Below are positions 44,747 through 62,007 of a stretch of DNA of 64,000 nt, in pieces; the first letter of the stretch is position 1; each line of letters starts with the position of its first letter. The stretch lies in the IMG/VR virus record IMGVR_UViG_3300032334_001923, positions 62,001-126,000 of that record. One strand, 5' to 3'. The translations under genes and the position numbers were made by a program. This DNA comes from a virus. The notes below the pieces were generated by a model, which saw only the letters and a list, made by a program, of their open reading frames with translations, did not search any database and was not told the DNA's origin.

Positions 44747-47053
44747 ATGCACTTTAATACTAAATATATTTTTCAAGGAGACTCAGAGAAAGAGATAGTC
44801 AAAAAGATAAACTACAATTTTGATCAGATTCTTTCTTTCGCTGTTGGCCCGGACGGACACGTAGGTGACAAAGGTCCAACCGGATACGCCGGACCTGCGG
44901 GAAAAAAAGGCGTACATGGAGGATCTGGTGCAAGGGGATCTTTATGGTTTAAGCAATCAACCGAGCCATCTTCATCTATAAGTAACCAATTCGATAAGTG
45001 GATAGATGAATCAACAAGTTCCAACGAGGTTAAAGAATATGGCCCAACAGGAAGCTGGAGTTACACAGGATACTCAATGTTTTCCTCCACTTACTTCAAA
45101 TCTTATTCAGGAATATCTGGACCTGCTGGGGTTACTGATAAATTCGTTATAGGATTTTCAAATTCTGGCGGATTAACTGCAAGTGAAACGAGTCTCGTTC
45201 TTTCCGACAAGACATTGAATATAACCAATTCAAATCCTAATAGAAGTAAACTGATCATTTCAACTCTTGATCAAACTTCCACCCCTGTACTTACATTTAC
45301 GAAAACAACTACAAATACTACGGGTGCTCCTTCGTTCTATTGGAAAAATACGGGAGCAGATACAGGTTTAGTTCTAAAATCTTCAGGCTCTTCCATTTCT
45401 TTTGTTTCTTCCCTAGGTCTAACCATAGATTCAAGTACAGCTAGAAGTATAATCTTTGGTACTTCTATGACTATGACAGCTAACAATGATATAAAAATTT
45501 CGGGATTAGGAGATTTTATACTTGGGACTAATACTACTATAGGAACTGGATCTGCTTTTGCCATACTTACTAGCAACATAGAAATGGCATCATCGTATTA
45601 TAGATCCAATGTACCTACTAAAATAAATAATTCGCAGTCTGGAGTTTTTACTTTGGATAACACCAAAAACGTAACTGGAACTTCAACATCTTATGGCATA
45701 CAGATGGAAGTTCAAAGTCAAGTTAATTTAAGGGGATTTGAATTTTTAGACCTAACTGGTTCTGCTATATTTTCGGGGAAAATAAAGGGTCCGGTGTCTT
45801 CTGGTAAATCTCTTCAAACAACTTTTGGCTCAACTGGGAATGCAGCAGCAGGATCTACAGGGGGCCCTTATTTTTATCATGTCAAAAGGCTTAAAGAAAT
45901 ACGCTCTGACGGTAGCACAGTAACATGTAGACAGTATTTCAATTCAAGCACTTCAACTACTTATAACATACCTAATGTAATAGATCTAGACTCTTTGACA
46001 CTGTGGGATTCCAATTACATCATGGTAACCCCAATAGGTACTGCTTTAAACTCATGGAATCCTCCAACAACATACGGAGTTTATTTAAAGATTCCTGCCC
46101 CTCTTTCACCTACAGCTCCTTTATTTTATAACGGAACTGCTACAAATTACAGAGTTTTCGTTAATGACATAAACCCAAGTAACAGTGCGCCTAACAACGA
46201 CATTAAAATAGTGGGTTTAGTTTGGGACTACACTAGATACACAGGAACTTCAGCAACTACGACCACTTATTATCTGACCTTTCCTAGAGAAAGAGACATG
46301 AATTTTTATCAGAGCTACGGTTGCTCTTATGTTGATCTTATATGGATGCCACTCACGAGTTCAACCAATGCTACACCTAAAATATTTTGGAAAACGTGTA
46401 ACGGGAGTGCAGGGTTTATCAACGTCACCAACTACTACACTGTGGGACAATTAGTTCCTCCTAGCTCTGGCGGTGGAAGTGTCGGAAATCCGCTATCTTC
46501 TTCCGGTGGAGGTGGGGTATCTTCTGGAGGAGGCGGTATCGGCGGTGGAGGATATGGAGGTGGATCACCTTCAGGAGGTGGAGGCTGCTTCTTGCCTGGA
46601 ACTCTTATAACTATGGCTGATGGATCTAAGAAACTAATCGAAGAAATTTCGATAGGAGATCTTGTGATGTCTTATGATTTCAACTCTGGAAAATTGACAG
46701 ATGATGTTGTTTCTGAAACATTCAATCTTGTAAATAACAATATAGTAGAATTTGTTCTAGAAAACGGGACATCTTTAAGAAGCACTTCGGATCACCCATA
46801 TTGGGTTGAAAATAAAGGCTGGTGTTCTTTTGATCCCATAGCAACTAAAGATAAATACAGCATAGATTCTGCTCTTATAGATGAGGATGATCTATTAACT
46901 TCGGATGATCTTAAACAGATTAAGATAATTTCGATTAAAAAACTGGAAATGTTAGAAAGCAAAGTGATAAACTTCCATGCGCTTAAGAATCAGAATTATT
47001 TTGCAGAGGGAGTCCTAGTTCATAATAAACAAATATTCATCCCTGCGGAGTAA
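44747..47053 (+). CDS. Collagen-like fibre protein 3 with C-terminal Hint domain
   Basis: A 768-residue protein. Residues 10-32 (QGDSEKEIVKKINYNFDQIL) are the shared attachment segment, then collagen-like triplets (about 35-64), a beta-rich body, a Gly/Ser-rich linker (about 572-613) and a Hint domain at 614-760. That domain begins with the catalytic-type Cys614 (GCFLPGTLITMADGS), has a TSDHPYW block with the Thr-x-x-His residues, and ends VHN760, followed by Lys and seven more residues. His-Asn with Lys as next residue rules out normal protein splicing but would allow N- or C-terminal self-cleavage. No homing endonuclease is inserted. It starts three bases after fibre 2. Confidence 0.78.
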   Translation: MHFNTKYIFQGDSEKEIVKKINYNFDQILSFAVGPDGHVGDKGPTGYAGPAGKKGVHGGSGARGSLWFKQSTEPSSSISNQFDKWIDESTSSNEVKEYGPTGSWSYTGYSMFSSTYFKSYSGISGPAGVTDKFVIGFSNSGGLTASETSLVLSDKTLNITNSNPNRSKLIISTLDQTSTPVLTFTKTTTNTTGAPSFYWKNTGADTGLVLKSSGSSISFVSSLGLTIDSSTARSIIFGTSMTMTANNDIKISGLGDFILGTNTTIGTGSAFAILTSNIEMASSYYRSNVPTKINNSQSGVFTLDNTKNVTGTSTSYGIQMEVQSQVNLRGFEFLDLTGSAIFSGKIKGPVSSGKSLQTTFGSTGNAAAGSTGGPYFYHVKRLKEIRSDGSTVTCRQYFNSSTSTTYNIPNVIDLDSLTLWDSNYIMVTPIGTALNSWNPPTTYGVYLKIPAPLSPTAPLFYNGTATNYRVFVNDINPSNSAPNNDIKIVGLVWDYTRYTGTSATTTTYYLTFPRERDMNFYQSYGCSYVDLIWMPLTSSTNATPKIFWKTCNGSAGFINVTNYYTVGQLVPPSSGGGSVGNPLSSSGGGGVSSGGGGIGGGGYGGGSPSGGGGCFLPGTLITMADGSKKLIEEISIGDLVMSYDFNSGKLTDDVVSETFNLVNNNIVEFVLENGTSLRSTSDHPYWVENKGWCSFDPIATKDKYSIDSALIDEDDLLTSDDLKQIKIISIKKLEMLESKVINFHALKNQNYFAEGVLVHNKQIFIPAE
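46586..47026 (+). other. Hint (intein/Hedgehog-type) domain, C-terminal in fibre 3
   Basis: Domain part of the 44747 gene: residues 614-760. Key residues seen are Cys614, the TSDH block and the His759-Asn760 end. The +1 residue is Lys, so it resembles bacterial intein-like type B or Hedgehog-type domains rather than a splicing intein. Confidence 0.75.
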
Positions 47054-47076
47054 TTTATAATATAAAAACAATAAAA

Positions 47077-47343
47077 ATGGCTTTATTAACAAAAAAAGAA
47101 AAGGATACGATCCTAAAATTCTCAGAAACCTACATCAAGCTTCACGGGGAGATAGTTGAAGTTGAAAAACATATAAAAGATCTGGAGCAAAGATCAGGAG
47201 ATCTAGTAAACGATCTTCAGTGTTGTAGAAAGAATGAGGCCGAATTTATGAGTAAGCTCGAAGCCAAATATGGCCCGGGGAAGTTAAACCCTATGACCCT
47301 TTGTTGGGAAAAAGAAATTATTAGAGATGAAGTACTTCAGTAA
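47077..47343 (+). CDS. Small coiled-coil protein
   Basis: An 88-residue, charged, helical protein with heptads (ETYIKLHGEIVEVEKHIKDL) and two adjacent Cys residues (CC, about 49-50). No signal peptide. It overlaps the next gene by 17 bases (start 47327 inside its 3' end), which suggests translational coupling with the membrane protein. It resembles small lysis or assembly accessory proteins only in general form. Function unknown. Confidence 0.62.
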   Translation: MALLTKKEKDTILKFSETYIKLHGEIVEVEKHIKDLEQRSGDLVNDLQCCRKNEAEFMSKLEAKYGPGKLNPMTLCWEKEIIRDEVLQ

Positions 47344-48169
47344 AGAAACACCAGGAAAAGTTTTCAGCCTGCTATCTAGCAGGATGGGACTTTTAGTAGT
47401 TATAGCAATCTTAATTATGCTATTTCTAAAACAATGCAACGAGAGAGCAGCAATCGAGGCAGAAGCAAAAAGAGAGCACAACAATTATCTGGCAGCTCAG
47501 GATAGTGTTAGAACTATAAGTAAGGATAAGGATCACCTCATCCAAGAAAAGTCTGCTTTTCAACTTAAAGTTTCAGAGCTTTCTAAAGATCAGAAGGATC
47601 TTATAGCTCAACTAGGACTAAAATCAAACGGTAGAGGAAATACACCTAGAACTGTTATTGAAACCGTAGTTGAGTATAGAGATACAGGGAGAGTGGTTTC
47701 TTCGGTTATTAAAGACGCATCTGGTGAATCTATTAATTTTGAATACGCACCGGAGATGAAGGGAAAGAATAAATTAGTTATATCAGGAAAAACTCCATAT
47801 AAAGTAAATCTTTTTAAAGATCCCGAAGACAGCACTAGATATTTAACCTCTGTTGATCCTGGACATACTGATTTAACAATTGCACAGAATATAGAATTGG
47901 TTACTGGAATATATCAAGATCCTAAGTCAAAGAGAATTATGACTAGAGTTAGCACAACTTTTCCTAATTTAACTTTTAGTGATGTTAACTCTTTTGATAT
48001 TACTGATAACCCAGAAACAAGAAAAAGTCTTAAGAACGCCAGAAAAGAATTCGGAATTGGATTCACAATAGGTTACGGAATGGCTTTATCAACAACAGGA
48101 GTTAAACCTGGATTAATATTAGGAGTTGGTTTCCACTATACCCCTAAGTTTCTCCAATTTGGAAAATAA
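47327..48169 (+). CDS. Membrane-anchored coiled-coil protein (possible spanin-like)
   Basis: A 280-residue protein. A single hydrophobic segment at about 20-37 (LLVVIAILIMLFL) follows a positively charged N-terminus, consistent with N-in membrane anchoring. Residues about 40-100 are a coiled coil. The C-terminal 50 residues (FGIGFTIGYG ... LILGVGFHYTP) form alternating amphipathic strands like a beta-barrel end or beta-tail. A membrane anchor with coiled coil and distal beta part is seen in spanin-like and tail-membrane proteins. The location between two Hint-carrying genes is odd for a lysis gene, so the role remains open. Confidence 0.6.
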   Translation: MKYFSKETPGKVFSLLSSRMGLLVVIAILIMLFLKQCNERAAIEAEAKREHNNYLAAQDSVRTISKDKDHLIQEKSAFQLKVSELSKDQKDLIAQLGLKSNGRGNTPRTVIETVVEYRDTGRVVSSVIKDASGESINFEYAPEMKGKNKLVISGKTPYKVNLFKDPEDSTRYLTSVDPGHTDLTIAQNIELVTGIYQDPKSKRIMTRVSTTFPNLTFSDVNSFDITDNPETRKSLKNARKEFGIGFTIGYGMALSTTGVKPGLILGVGFHYTPKFLQFGK

Positions 48170-48177
48170 TTAGAAAA

Positions 48178-50979
48178 ATGGCATATAGTACATCATCAAA
48201 ATACGTTCAGCTCACTCCATATCTTTTAATGGAGTATATGTATGCTGATCAACCTACCCCGGAAACATATTTTACGAATACCGGAGGATCCACTGTTACC
48301 TTTGATAAATTGATCAATGGGTACATGTCTGATGCTGTACAGATTTTTAATCCTCCAGCGGATTATAGCATAACCCAAAACGGTCCAGAAAATAGTGTGG
48401 TTAAGATAGCTGAGAATTCATTTGTGACCTTAGATTCTAACCTTATAATTCCATTTAATGATTATTCAGAATATCTTACTGACACCACGAATCTTCCGAT
48501 AACTTTTCCGTATAACTTAAGTGTTGTTTATGACACTATCAGATACCACCTCAGAGCGGGATACAATCTTCAGAATATAGATGGACTTATTATAGGAATA
48601 GATTTTCAGGATGTCGATTCTACTTATGTTACAATTTCTCAGATACTTTTAAAGAGAGGAACTGAACAGGAGTACACTTTAAATCCCAATCCTGTAACAA
48701 TTGGATCAAACATCTATGACAAGTTCTTTGAGATCAAGATACCTAGTTTAAAGAACATGAACGACACGTATCTTGCAACCCCAGCAAACTTCCAATCTGT
48801 TTCATTAGCGGGTTTATTAAGTGCTAGTGGAAACGGGTTTGTATATGGAGCTCCGATGAGAATATCTCTTTGGCAGGTTCAAAGTACTGATGATTTTGCA
48901 GGTTATGACAGATATAATTCTTCCAGAATAGCTCTTCTATCTTTAGAGGAGGAAGATCCTTTTGCAAACATAGGAGCCGTGATACAAGAATCCGATAAAG
49001 GAGAATTCTTTGAATATTTTGCAACCGATAATGAAGGATTCATAGAGGATTTTATTCTTTTCCAGAATTCAATAGGAAATAGCTATTACATAAGTCATCA
49101 GATAGAAGTACTTGAACAAATTGGTGCTGCAATTATAGAAACGTCTAGGTTTGAATCTATACAGACAACTGCTTATGATACACCTAACTACTATAGACCT
49201 ATAGTTAGAAATGCCGCCTATGCTGCATCTTTCTTTCTAAGATACACTATGTCTCTGGTTAATAATAAAGACCAAACAAGGGTAATTAGAATAGCATCAT
49301 ATTCATCTAATAATCCTTCTCAGTGGGGATTAAATATAACTCCAATTCAACTTAGTACTTTTCCGCAAGTTCAGAAAATATACAACAAGGTTTACAGTCA
49401 GCCCCAAATTAAACTTGGAGGGTTTAACACTCCACAACCTAAGGAGATATTGAAATTCACGAATGTTTACATCCAGCAGAATTTAATTAATTCCACTGCG
49501 ACTAATCTGGTTCTTCAAAACGGATCTCTTACCGAGACCCTTAGTTCCACCCCTAGTGTTGCAGTTGGTACTGGTAAATTAACGGTAACCCTTTCTCCTT
49601 TTGATAATTATTATAAATTCAAATTTATTAAGAGTGGAAGTGACGGAACCCCTGTTGCTGTAGATCTTAGCAATTCGCCTATTTATAATTTGGCCTTCCT
49701 GGATAATCAGGGAAATAAAATTTATGTTCCTACTCTTTCCGATCCAACTATAGCTAGACCTTCTTCAGGAGAATTGGCTTTTAAAGTTGATGAATCAACA
49801 TCAGTTAAGGTTCTTAAATTCAGTGACAGAAGATTCTTTATAGTAAGTGGAGGAGGAAATCCACTAGGTGCTACAGGATCAACGGTGGCTCTGGCTTCAA
49901 GTGTTGAAGCTGTTGCCTCCGGAAATCGTGAAAGATTAAGAGCAGTTCCTATTTCTAGTACAGATCCTGCTATAAATCTAGCCACTCAGAATTATAAAAG
50001 TCTTAACACGATCACTAAGACAACTAACACTTTAAACCCAGACTCAACTAAAAACAATCCTGCTAGTGTTATCTATTGGGGATATTGGAAGAAAGAAGGA
50101 GAATCTGATTTTGTAACAACCGTTACCACGGCAGGTGCAACTGGTGCAACTGGTGCTCCAGCTCCTGTAAGTAGTGGAACACAGGTTCTTGGAGATCTTG
50201 AGCCAGTAGTTATTATTCCTAGAAAACCATTTATCCGTACAATTAAACCTCCTGTTAGAGGCCAAATTCTAGAATCTAATCTTGGATTAACCGGACCTGT
50301 AGCGGTAAGCTCAGCAACAAATCGGTTAACAGGAAACGCTTTGATTTCTGCCCTTAGCGCTCAGATTCAAGGGTACAAAGATTCTGGATGGAAAGATCAA
50401 ACAATTATAGATTACTTCCTAATACCAGGAAATCCTGGGTATATCCAATATCCTGGATTAACTAAAGCTGAATTCATAAAAGCAGCAAGTGGAATTCTTT
50501 CCCCTACTTCTATCAGCGTTCTAACAAGACAATCAATCTCATCAAGTGGAGGCGCTAGTGGATGTCCAACCCCAGATATGAAAATTTATTTAGGTAAGGA
50601 TAATTGGGTTACTGCAGGAAACTTAGTTAAAGGAATGGAGGTTTACACAGTTCATGAAAAAACAGGGGAGTGGGGAATTTACAAAGTTGTTCATTCTGAA
50701 ATAATCAAGCAACCGGTGTTGGCTGTTAAAATAGGTGACAAGAGAGTAACCGTTTCAGCTTCCCATAAATTCTTAACGGATTCCGGAAAATATGAAGAAA
50801 CTATGGATCTGAAGATTGGATCTCTCATAAGAACTATAAATGGAACTGCCATCCTATCAGAGAAGAACTACATTGGTGAATCTGATGTTGTTAAAATAGA
50901 GGTACAGGGAGCACATACCTATATAATGGAGGGATTTGTTTCTCATAATAAAAGAGCAGCAGAAAAAATAGAAGAATAA
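48178..50979 (+). CDS. Virion protein with C-terminal Hint domain
   Basis: A 933-residue protein. The first 780 residues are beta-rich and of virion type, with a GATGATGA-type low-complexity stretch near 655. A Ser/Gly linker (SISSSGGASG) leads to a Hint domain at 796-924: Cys796 (GCPTPDMKIYL), VSASHKFL with the Ser-x-x-His block, and a SHN924 end followed by Lys and eight residues. Both Hint domains in this window therefore share N-terminal Cys, penultimate His, terminal Asn and a +1 Lys, but are diverged in sequence. No collagen part is present here. The start lies 8 bases after the membrane protein. Confidence 0.75.
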   Translation: MAYSTSSKYVQLTPYLLMEYMYADQPTPETYFTNTGGSTVTFDKLINGYMSDAVQIFNPPADYSITQNGPENSVVKIAENSFVTLDSNLIIPFNDYSEYLTDTTNLPITFPYNLSVVYDTIRYHLRAGYNLQNIDGLIIGIDFQDVDSTYVTISQILLKRGTEQEYTLNPNPVTIGSNIYDKFFEIKIPSLKNMNDTYLATPANFQSVSLAGLLSASGNGFVYGAPMRISLWQVQSTDDFAGYDRYNSSRIALLSLEEEDPFANIGAVIQESDKGEFFEYFATDNEGFIEDFILFQNSIGNSYYISHQIEVLEQIGAAIIETSRFESIQTTAYDTPNYYRPIVRNAAYAASFFLRYTMSLVNNKDQTRVIRIASYSSNNPSQWGLNITPIQLSTFPQVQKIYNKVYSQPQIKLGGFNTPQPKEILKFTNVYIQQNLINSTATNLVLQNGSLTETLSSTPSVAVGTGKLTVTLSPFDNYYKFKFIKSGSDGTPVAVDLSNSPIYNLAFLDNQGNKIYVPTLSDPTIARPSSGELAFKVDESTSVKVLKFSDRRFFIVSGGGNPLGATGSTVALASSVEAVASGNRERLRAVPISSTDPAINLATQNYKSLNTITKTTNTLNPDSTKNNPASVIYWGYWKKEGESDFVTTVTTAGATGATGAPAPVSSGTQVLGDLEPVVIIPRKPFIRTIKPPVRGQILESNLGLTGPVAVSSATNRLTGNALISALSAQIQGYKDSGWKDQTIIDYFLIPGNPGYIQYPGLTKAEFIKAASGILSPTSISVLTRQSISSSGGASGCPTPDMKIYLGKDNWVTAGNLVKGMEVYTVHEKTGEWGIYKVVHSEIIKQPVLAVKIGDKRVTVSASHKFLTDSGKYEETMDLKIGSLIRTINGTAILSEKNYIGESDVVKIEVQGAHTYIMEGFVSHNKRAAEKIEE
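50563..50949 (+). other. Hint domain, C-terminal in the 48178 gene
   Basis: Residues 796-924 of the 48178 product. Cys796, Ser-Ala-Ser-His and His923-Asn924 are in place; the residue after Asn is Lys. No endonuclease insertion fits in its 129 residues. Confidence 0.72.
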
Positions 50980-50985
50980 TAGATT

Positions 50986-51534
50986 ATGATTTTAAACCCG
51001 AAAGCTAATAGTTTTTACTTTAATTTCCCTAAAGGATTCTTTAGCGAGAGAGTAACTCAAAAGTATGAAAAATACATCAAAAGACAGCCAATACCTTTTG
51101 ATAATGTGCAGCAGTATGTAAACAGCACAATTCAATCTGTAGGGTTTCCTAGTATATCTATAGACACAGTTGAACAAGTTAGACTACTAGGTAAGAAGAT
51201 AAATTATAAAAGTTCAACCCCTATTCAGGATTTATTCTCAAGGGATTTCTCTATTAACTTTAAAATGGCGGACGGGTTCGTGAATTACTTCATACTTTTA
51301 GACACCGTCTTAGATTTTCTTAATTTTGAGAACCCCCAGTTATTTATACAGGATTTGCCTCTAAGAATAATGGACAATGAGGGGAACGTCCTCTTTTCAT
51401 TGACCTTCCAGGAGGTAATTTTCAGCTCCCTGAATAACATAGATCTATCTTATACTAACAATAGTCCAAACTTTACCGCATTCACACTAGGATTTAGATG
51501 TAACTACATAGACATAGTTACGGAGATAAAGTAA
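50986..51534 (+). CDS. Tail-tube-like protein
   Basis: A 182-residue protein. It contains YVNSTIQSVGFPSISID, then QDLFSRDFSINFKMADGFVN, NYFILLDTV, and FTAFTLGFRCNYIDI, the layout of phage tail-tube proteins, in which a beta-sandwich with an amphipathic loop builds stacked hexameric rings. The length is close to T4 gp19 (163). Since a tube-like domain also occurs in the 688 gene, this protein may be the main tube, a tube-terminator or a hub-ring protein. It lies at the end of the virion-protein operon, before a GATATATA box. Confidence 0.5.
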   Translation: MILNPKANSFYFNFPKGFFSERVTQKYEKYIKRQPIPFDNVQQYVNSTIQSVGFPSISIDTVEQVRLLGKKINYKSSTPIQDLFSRDFSINFKMADGFVNYFILLDTVLDFLNFENPQLFIQDLPLRIMDNEGNVLFSLTFQEVIFSSLNNIDLSYTNNSPNFTAFTLGFRCNYIDIVTEIK

Positions 51535-55630: not shown

Positions 55631-57154
55631 ATGCTTAAATTCCAAGTTTCTGAAGACCAACAATGGATGATTCTTTTAGAGTCATTAGACGAGGTCGAGA
55701 AGAAACAAATAGAAATATCTCTCACAAAGAAGATCCACAACTTCTATTTTCATCCACTGGTAAAGAAAAAACTATGGGATGGGAATATTTGTTTTGTTGA
55801 AAAAAGGGGTGGCTACTGGAAAGTCCCAATAGGCCTCTGGAGAGAGGTTATGCAAATAGGGGAAGACTATAATATAAAGATTGAAATAAATGGTCTTGAC
55901 AACATCATCAATCCGAATTTAACCCTCGAGGAATACACTTCATGGGTTAATGACTTTTTTGCAGATTCCGATATAGAGCCAAGAGATTACCAGATAGAAA
56001 CAGCATGGAAGATTATAAAGTATAGATACTCAATTTCTGAGGTGGCAACGTCTTCTGGAAAAACCCTTATCTCCTTTATGATATTTGCTTATCTTAAATC
56101 TAAAGGACTGGTTCGTAAATTCATGATGGTTGTGCCTAGCACCAATCTTGTTTTTCAAGGAAGCGATGATTTCGATGATTATGGTCTTGCTAAGCTTGGA
56201 GTTAAGATTCAACAAATAGGTGGTGGTAATAAATTAAGGGAAGGATGTGATTTAATTATTGGAACATTCCAATCTCTAGTTAAACAAGACAAGGAATTTT
56301 TTGAAGAGATTGATGCAGTTTTTGTTGACGAAGCGCACCACACCAACTCCAATTCTATTAAGAAGATAGTTTCACATTGCATGCACTCTAAATGGAGATT
56401 CGGATTAACCGGAACTTTGACCAAAAGAGGCACTGCAGATTATCTAACCATTCAGCAATTTCTAGGACCACTCGTCGTGGAAATCCCACCGAGCTTTCTA
56501 TTTGCCAATAACTATGCAACTCCCGTTTCTATCAAGGTTGTTATTATGGACTGGTTAGAGAAAGAGTATAAAGAGAAACTAGCGGATCTTAAATTGAACA
56601 ACAACAACCTGGAGGGGAATGAAGTTTATAACATAGAAAGGAAACTTGTGATAGAGAGCAAGAAGCGTCTTAATTATGTAGTTGACTTCATCAGTAAAAC
56701 ATCTAAAAATTCACTGGTGTTATTCCAATCTGTAAAGGACGAATACGGAAAACAGATATGGAATTTAATCAGGGAAAAGAATAACGACAAAGAGGTTTTC
56801 TATGTTGACGGAGAAACCGATGAGGGATTAAGAGAAGAATATAAATCTAGAATGGGAGGGGGTAACAATAAGATTCTCGTTGCAACCTACGGTACGTTCT
56901 CCACAGGTATTTCCATAAATAACCTACATAATATCTTTTTAGTTGAGTCTTACAAGAGCGAAGTTCTCATAAAACAGAGCTTGGGTAGAGGTATGAGAAA
57001 AATGGAGGGCAAGGAAAAAGTTAACGTTATTGACTTCGTGGATGACTTTTCCACTCCTAAATACCAAAACTACCTTATTAAGCACGGAAATGCCCGTATA
57101 GAGATCTATAAAAAGGAGGGCTTCGAATACCGGGTTTTTAATATAAAACTTTAA
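55631..57154 (+). CDS. uvsW: UvsW-type ATP-dependent helicase
   Basis: A 507-residue superfamily 2 helicase, close to T4 UvsW (503). Seen: an N-terminal substrate-binding domain, a Q-like PRDYQ motif (118-122), Walker A ATSSGKT (139-145), DEAH at 233-236, motif III FGLTGTL and motif VI QSLGRGMRK near 454-462. UvsW drives branch migration, D-loop unwinding and replication-fork regression, and in T4 ends origin-dependent replication. A GAATATATAATAA stretch lies just before the start. No lesions are seen. Confidence 0.92.
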   Translation: MLKFQVSEDQQWMILLESLDEVEKKQIEISLTKKIHNFYFHPLVKKKLWDGNICFVEKRGGYWKVPIGLWREVMQIGEDYNIKIEINGLDNIINPNLTLEEYTSWVNDFFADSDIEPRDYQIETAWKIIKYRYSISEVATSSGKTLISFMIFAYLKSKGLVRKFMMVVPSTNLVFQGSDDFDDYGLAKLGVKIQQIGGGNKLREGCDLIIGTFQSLVKQDKEFFEEIDAVFVDEAHHTNSNSIKKIVSHCMHSKWRFGLTGTLTKRGTADYLTIQQFLGPLVVEIPPSFLFANNYATPVSIKVVIMDWLEKEYKEKLADLKLNNNNLEGNEVYNIERKLVIESKKRLNYVVDFISKTSKNSLVLFQSVKDEYGKQIWNLIREKNNDKEVFYVDGETDEGLREEYKSRMGGGNNKILVATYGTFSTGISINNLHNIFLVESYKSEVLIKQSLGRGMRKMEGKEKVNVIDFVDDFSTPKYQNYLIKHGNARIEIYKKEGFEYRVFNIKL

Positions 57155-61778: not shown

Positions 61779-62007
61779 TGAGGGAGACACCGGATCTTAT
61801 CCTCCCCCTCAGTCACCCATAGCAATTCAGCCAGGTGACACAGGATTTAAAACGGTAGGAAAGGGCTACAATCGATTCATTTGGACCTTTAGCGATTGGG
61901 ACAAAAGAAAAAAGAAGATCATAGATCCGGATAAAAATTGGGGGTTAGCTTCCAAACCGATGTCAAAATCCGAATGGGATAAAAAGAAGAAAGATCTATA
62001 TCTTTAA
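61756..62007 (+). CDS. Small hypothetical protein (83 aa)
   Basis: ATG 61756 is preferred; an upstream in-frame ATG at 61687 would overlap the previous gene by 92 bases. The product is Pro/Gly-rich at the start (GSYPPPQSP) and ends in a Trp-rich, Lys-rich part (RFIWTFSDWDKRKKK; SEWDKKKKDLYL). No domain recognised. A strong terminator starts ten bases after its stop, so it is the last gene of the accessory transcript. Confidence 0.5.
   Translation: MQKNFSTNEGDTGSYPPPQSPIAIQPGDTGFKTVGKGYNRFIWTFSDWDKRKKKIIDPDKNWGLASKPMSKSEWDKKKKDLYL

Follow-up and report, generated by a model that had tools for sequence, protein, structure and literature searches.

Predicted A-type BIL-like Hint domains at the C-termini of two tail-module proteins encoded by a viral contig

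The tail module and its two Hint-bearing genes

The window analysed, a stretch of 64,000 nucleotides, belongs to a 127 kb viral contig (IMG/VR record IMGVR_UViG_3300032334_001923, positions 62,001 to 126,000) and contains a tail module that includes a baseplate wedge protein (phrog_219) and a tail-tube-like gene (phrog_45). Two genes of this module, designated here P1 and P2, carry a C-terminal Hint domain behind a Gly-rich linker and end in a short tail that begins with Lys. The features of the two genes are as follows.

44747..47053, + strand: P1, an open ORF for a 768-aa fibre-like protein with a C-terminal Hint
46466..46585, + strand: P1 linker, Gly/Ser-rich, residues 574-613 (40 residues), Gly at -1
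46586..47026, + strand: P1 type 1 Hint, residues 614-760 (Pfam PT-HINT, AlphaFold, and Foldseek with BIL2 as best match)
47027..47050, + strand: P1 tail KQIFIPAE after Asn760, 8 residues, Lys at +1
48178..50979, + strand: P2, an open ORF of 933 aa with a conserved body (residues ~1-780) and a C-terminal Hint
50524..50562, + strand: P2 short linker, residues 783-795, TRQSISSSGGASG, ending in ...SSSGGASG, Gly at -1
50563..50949, + strand: P2 type 2 (CPTPDM) Hint, residues 796-924 (profile, AlphaFold, Foldseek)
50950..50976, + strand: P2 tail KRAAEKIEE after Asn924, 9 residues, Lys at +1
50986..51534, + strand: tail-tube-like protein (phrog_45, E 9e-11), directly downstream of P2

P1 is the third of three related fibre-like genes that lie in a row (41384, 42998, and 44747) and contain short collagen-like runs (residues 34-66 in P1), and its N-terminal family is common to the other two. 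The homologue of 42998 at one related locus (L037:4184-5901) is present as two ORFs where the near-identical locus L036 has one, which reflects either a frameshift or an assembly error. P2 matched no family in Pfam, NCBIfam, or PHROG, and fold comparison gave no clear solved relative of its body, whose fold is similar to that of uncharacterised proteins from Tenacibaculum phages and further myoviruses; a distant homologue sits among the baseplate genes of Flavobacterium phage MaF61. Flavobacteria are suggested as hosts by the relatives of this gene cluster. The position of P2 ahead of the tube gene raised the possibility of a tail sheath, which was rejected on the lack of a family match and of any sheath among the fold matches. 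Judged by their position in a contractile-tail gene module, P1 and P2 appear to be virion proteins.

The P1 domain (catalytic residues C614, T680-S-D-H683, and H759-N760) matches Pfam PT-HINT at 28.8 bits, above the 27.7-bit cut-off, and Intein_splicing and Hint below cut-off. Its AlphaFold model (mean pLDDT 90.5) is closest in the PDB to Tetrahymena BIL2 (6y75; target TM 0.92, rmsd 1.7 A by Foldseek), followed by the Clostridium BIL. The P2 domain (C796, S860-A-S-H863, and H923-N924) is identified as a Hint by its family profile and AlphaFold model. The profile aligns end to end with that of the P1 type (hhalign probability 98, E 6e-14) and matches PDB profiles of BIL 2lwy and DnaE inteins (E about 1e-6), and in the model a C-terminal part of ~140 residues matches PDB inteins and BIL (E 1e-8 to 1e-7, target TM 0.68-0.82), the fold matches being DnaB and gp41-1 inteins, BIL, and Hedgehog. 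The original prediction, made from the letters alone, had placed a Hint domain with these Cys, T/S-x-x-His, and His-Asn residues and a Lys at +1 at the end of both ORFs, behind a Gly/Ser linker and in fibre or tail proteins, and had held chance to be an unlikely source of the pair. Sequence, profiles, and predicted folds bear out the domains and their place behind a flexible linker, and the tail-module setting agrees, structure prediction having returned a Hint fold for P1 as well as P2, and chance occurrence of the two domains is excluded.

Affinities, distribution, and exchange of the Hint module

Both domains match solved inteins and BIL domains in predicted structure, and their sequence features and predicted folds place them in the Hint superfamily as A-type BIL domains: an N-terminal Cys, a T/S-x-x-His block (with Ser for Thr in the P2 type), a C-terminal His-Asn, and no Cys, Ser, or Thr at +1 (0/19). 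A-type BIL domains such as that of Clostridium thermocellum (PDB 2lwy) share the Hint fold, Cys1, TxxH, His-Asn, and the lack of a +1 nucleophile, whereas the phage Hints, which are known from sequence and predicted fold, follow a Gly-rich linker on tail-module proteins and have only 6-40 residues after the Asn in P1/P2 and a near-constant Lys at +1/+2. A-type BIL domains are placed in variable protein regions (PMC7765530), and those considered here are likewise carried by variable C-termini, but the bodies of their host proteins are conserved across these phages whereas the A-type BIL criterion specifies variable regions of non-conserved proteins. BIL2 of Tetrahymena BUBL (PDB 6y75, 6tmm), which is also among the best matches of the P1 Hint by sequence, is flanked by ubiquitin-like domains in its ciliate protein, while the P1 Hint is followed by a short tail only. 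PT-HINT of bacterial polymorphic toxins, above whose cut-off P1 scores, differs in that no toxin domain follows the phage Hint, which is the last domain. The Hog domain of Hedgehog is similarly a C-terminal Hint that cuts off an N-terminal body via a thioester, but the phage Hints have no following domain and possess the final His-Asn. The inteins known from phage terminases, helicases, and RNR have the same fold but interrupt conserved enzymes and have C/S/T at +1, in contrast to the C-terminal P1/P2 Hints with K/I/V/L; a canonical intein was rejected for P1 and P2 on these grounds, the +1 residue being Lys and the domain being a C-terminal addition rather than a conserved-site insertion.

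The Hints fall into two subfamilies, type 1 (CFxxGT...VLVHN, window P1) and type 2 (CPTPDM...SHN, window P2), which are separated in the tree by a long, fully supported branch and are 14% identical in a profile alignment. The two domains had been regarded as diverged copies; duplication of one from the other is rejected by the tree, and they represent separate acquisitions. IMG/VR scans gave 70 loci for P2 and 77 for P1, plus further sets for each Hint type, and the loci that were mapped retain the order of genes in the P1/P2 region. Among 55 distinct genomes in which both genes are complete, a Hint is found on both P1 and P2 in 6, on P1 only in 7, on P2 only in 1, and on neither in 41. The Hint begins approximately where Hint-free homologues stop, and hence constitutes an added C-terminal module. 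Hint labels on the P2 body tree require at least six changes, and the kind of Hint does not track the host protein, since the P2 of L036 bears a type 1 Hint and the P1 proteins of L025, L026, L033, L035, L052, L088, L102, and L107 bear type 2. In the clearest case, a stretch of ~460 nt at 82% DNA identity is common to the P1 gene of L046 and to P2 in L235 and L236; it runs from about ten bases ahead of the Hint through the second codon after the Asn, indicating that the module, including the Lys codon, has been traded between non-homologous virion genes. There is good support for regarding the Hint as an A-type BIL-like module that is conserved and can be exchanged.

Patchy presence and exchange as an exact cassette are also what a genetic passenger might exhibit, one that spreads among virion genes by recombination and excises itself with no benefit to the phage. 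We consider this improbable, given that no homing endonuclease domain is found within the module and that it sits at variable C-termini, unlike inteins at conserved active sites. Five pairs with finite dS gave Hint dN/dS values of 0.05-0.11, close to those of the bodies; in the pair formed by the window and L024 the P2 Hint gave 0.07 and the P1 Hint 0.32, the P1 value coming from nine substitutions only. In most of the pairs tested, purifying selection on the Hints is thus strong, which likewise speaks against a passenger, although selection for self-removal alone could yield the same signal.

Proposed self-removal and the Lys beside the final Asn

According to a review, A-type BIL domains have no +1 nucleophile, and cleavage dominates in them although splicing occurs; the route runs through a thioester at the N-terminal Cys and cyclisation of the C-terminal Asn, after which the freed amine attacks the thioester (PMC4031507). 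From this chemistry and from the reported use by BIL2 of a Lys epsilon-amine to form an isopeptide bond (PMC8616854), we infer that self-removal is the main event: the A-type BIL-like Hints of P1 and P2 are probably active and serve as C-terminal modules that remove themselves. Once the domain has folded, its first Cys would attack the Gly-Cys bond in an N-S acyl shift that converts the C-terminus of the body to a thioester, and cyclisation of the terminal Asn would break the Asn-Lys bond, allowing the Hint to leave. Hydrolysis would then be expected to give, as the main product, a body with a free Gly-rich C-terminus; alternatively, as a side product, the body could be joined to an amine, the nearest candidates being the Lys at +1/+2 and the tail once released. 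We infer not only the activity of the Hints but also the product mix, the presence of P1 and P2 in the virion, and the timing of the reaction in tail assembly. The original prediction had held that Lys at +1 makes normal splicing impossible; canonical transesterification is indeed ruled out, but splicing itself is not, as A-type BIL domains, which lack a +1 nucleophile, retain cleavage and, at lower frequency, splicing (PMC4031507).

Support for self-removal comes from the predicted Hint fold and its comparison with solved structures, for both proteins, and from the conservation of Cys1, T/S-x-x-His, and His-Asn in 19/19 P1/P2 Hints (complete domains, non-redundant at 80% identity). The low dN/dS of the Hints, their addition and exact-cassette exchange as a C-terminal module, and the cleavage and partial splicing by A-type BIL domains of like features (PMC4031507) count in its favour as well. 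The retention of every catalytic position despite wide divergence elsewhere, as between the two types, also makes it very improbable that the Hint is a dead leftover or a plain structural or binding domain, a reading consistent with the lack of a canonical +1 nucleophile and with the few other phage Hints that lack the final His-Asn (L242, L254). Counted against self-removal are the 41 of 55 genomes without a Hint on either gene, from which it follows that the Hint is not essential to P1 or P2, together with the P1 dN/dS of 0.32 and the non-Gly residues at -1 in some relatives (Phe, Tyr, or Cys), which may slow N-terminal cleavage.

The residue at +1 in the 19 P1/P2 Hints is K in 10, I in 6, V in 2, and L in 1, and Lys occupies +1 or +2 in 18/19, compared with a Lys share of 1.5-2.8% at +3 to +10 (1.5% for the P1/P2 Hints). 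The same holds for 21/24 other single phage Hints with His-Asn and, read by eye, for 7/9 bacterial BIL-like relatives with His-Asn, while helicase-type inteins in the latter set have C, S, or T at +1; several Hint-array proteins terminate exactly at HN-Lys. Although shared descent inflates the counts, the Lys next to the scissile Asn belongs to the module and is no accident. The notion that Lys only blocks the reaction was rejected as too simple, Lys being the rule in these Hints.

This enrichment, and the isopeptide chemistry reported for BIL2, to which the P1 Hint is structurally closest, would fit ligation as the purpose of the domain, whereby a Lys side chain at +1/+2, or on a neighbouring virion protein, attacks the thioester and forms an isopeptide that seals the end or crosslinks tail subunits. 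The co-occurrence of Hints on P1 and P2 (Fisher p 4e-4, computed without phylogeny) points the same way, but is underpowered once phylogeny is considered and was set aside as proof of joint function. Moreover, the Lys used by BIL2 belongs to the next domain and is not at +1, and Lys at +1/+2, being found also on the bacterial BIL relatives, may instead aid Asn cyclisation or folding; we regard ligation as the purpose as unlikely. Slightly less credence is given to its more specific form, in which HN-Lys would be a built-in amine nucleophile and the C-terminal Hint a self-contained ligase that ends or crosslinks tail subunits by isopeptide, the cassette being traded between virion genes. Self-removal remains the preferred reading.

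Other viral Hint proteins

A Gly-rich linker, Hint, His-Asn-Lys, and short tail are also found on members of the tail-protein family phrog_2048 (L246, L258), and a protein related to the L258 body carries the annotation 'minor tail protein L'. Open-access text searches, which did find inteins of phage terminases, of RNR, and of helicases, revealed no paper describing Hint domains on phage virion proteins, a weak form of evidence for novelty; a viral structure library includes, as names only, entries for uncultured phages called 'Hint domain containing protein'. Among GenBank phages, no isolated phage with an equivalent domain was found, and a pattern scan, which reaches close relatives only, detected no type 2 Hints in cellular genomes. 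The 'minor tail protein' of Escherichia phage ES (L318:3557-4366) was rejected as an equivalent, as its sequence, read by eye, combines the N-terminal part of an interrupted helicase-like protein with the N-terminal half of a Hint, and the annotation looks wrong.

Self-catalysed cutting or joining may serve to finish phage tails. If the domains react, tail proteins would mature by self-catalysis without a separate protease, a role similar to that of self-cleaving tailspike chaperones, but by way of a thioester, which can also join proteins. Small natural Hints with a +1 Lys could furthermore serve as ligation tools.

Further Hint arrangements were encountered. Proteins of 2758-2918 aa (L120, L122, L123, L129, and L130) contain an internal type 2 Hint followed by 938-1096 residues, with phrog_358 before and phrog_5986 after the Hint in L120. 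Uncultured viral proteins of ~750-916 aa (L212:207-2936, L215, L224, L229, L230, L243, and ~30 further loci) end in three to four tandem Hints separated by junctions of a few residues (HN-KF-C, HN-RA-C, HN-SGPGDS-C), and their N-terminal ~300 residues are ATP-grasp-like by eye; a 2637-aa protein (L003:708-8621) has three tandem Hints, the first junction being a single Lys (HN-K-C). ORFs of 330-336 aa (L029:12068-13060, L045:14939-15949, L068:6793-7785, and L075:14939-15949) close with the N-terminal half of a Hint that follows VFVDE|C or VFIDE|C, which seems to be the DEAH box of the UvsW-like helicase (uninterrupted at that point in the window, 55631-57154), and are candidate split inteins. 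The Hints of L242 and L254 start with CFVAGT and end in ...ANGVLV or ADGVLV, with no His-Asn, one residue before the stop, and are possibly N-cleavage-only types. Finally, Pfam AXH (the ataxin-1/HBP1 module) matches phage Hints above cut-off, with E 2e-11 on P1 (46586-47026) and values down to 2e-41 on Hint arrays (L212, L227, L229), which suggests that AXH may be descended from, or share ancestry with, a Hint domain.
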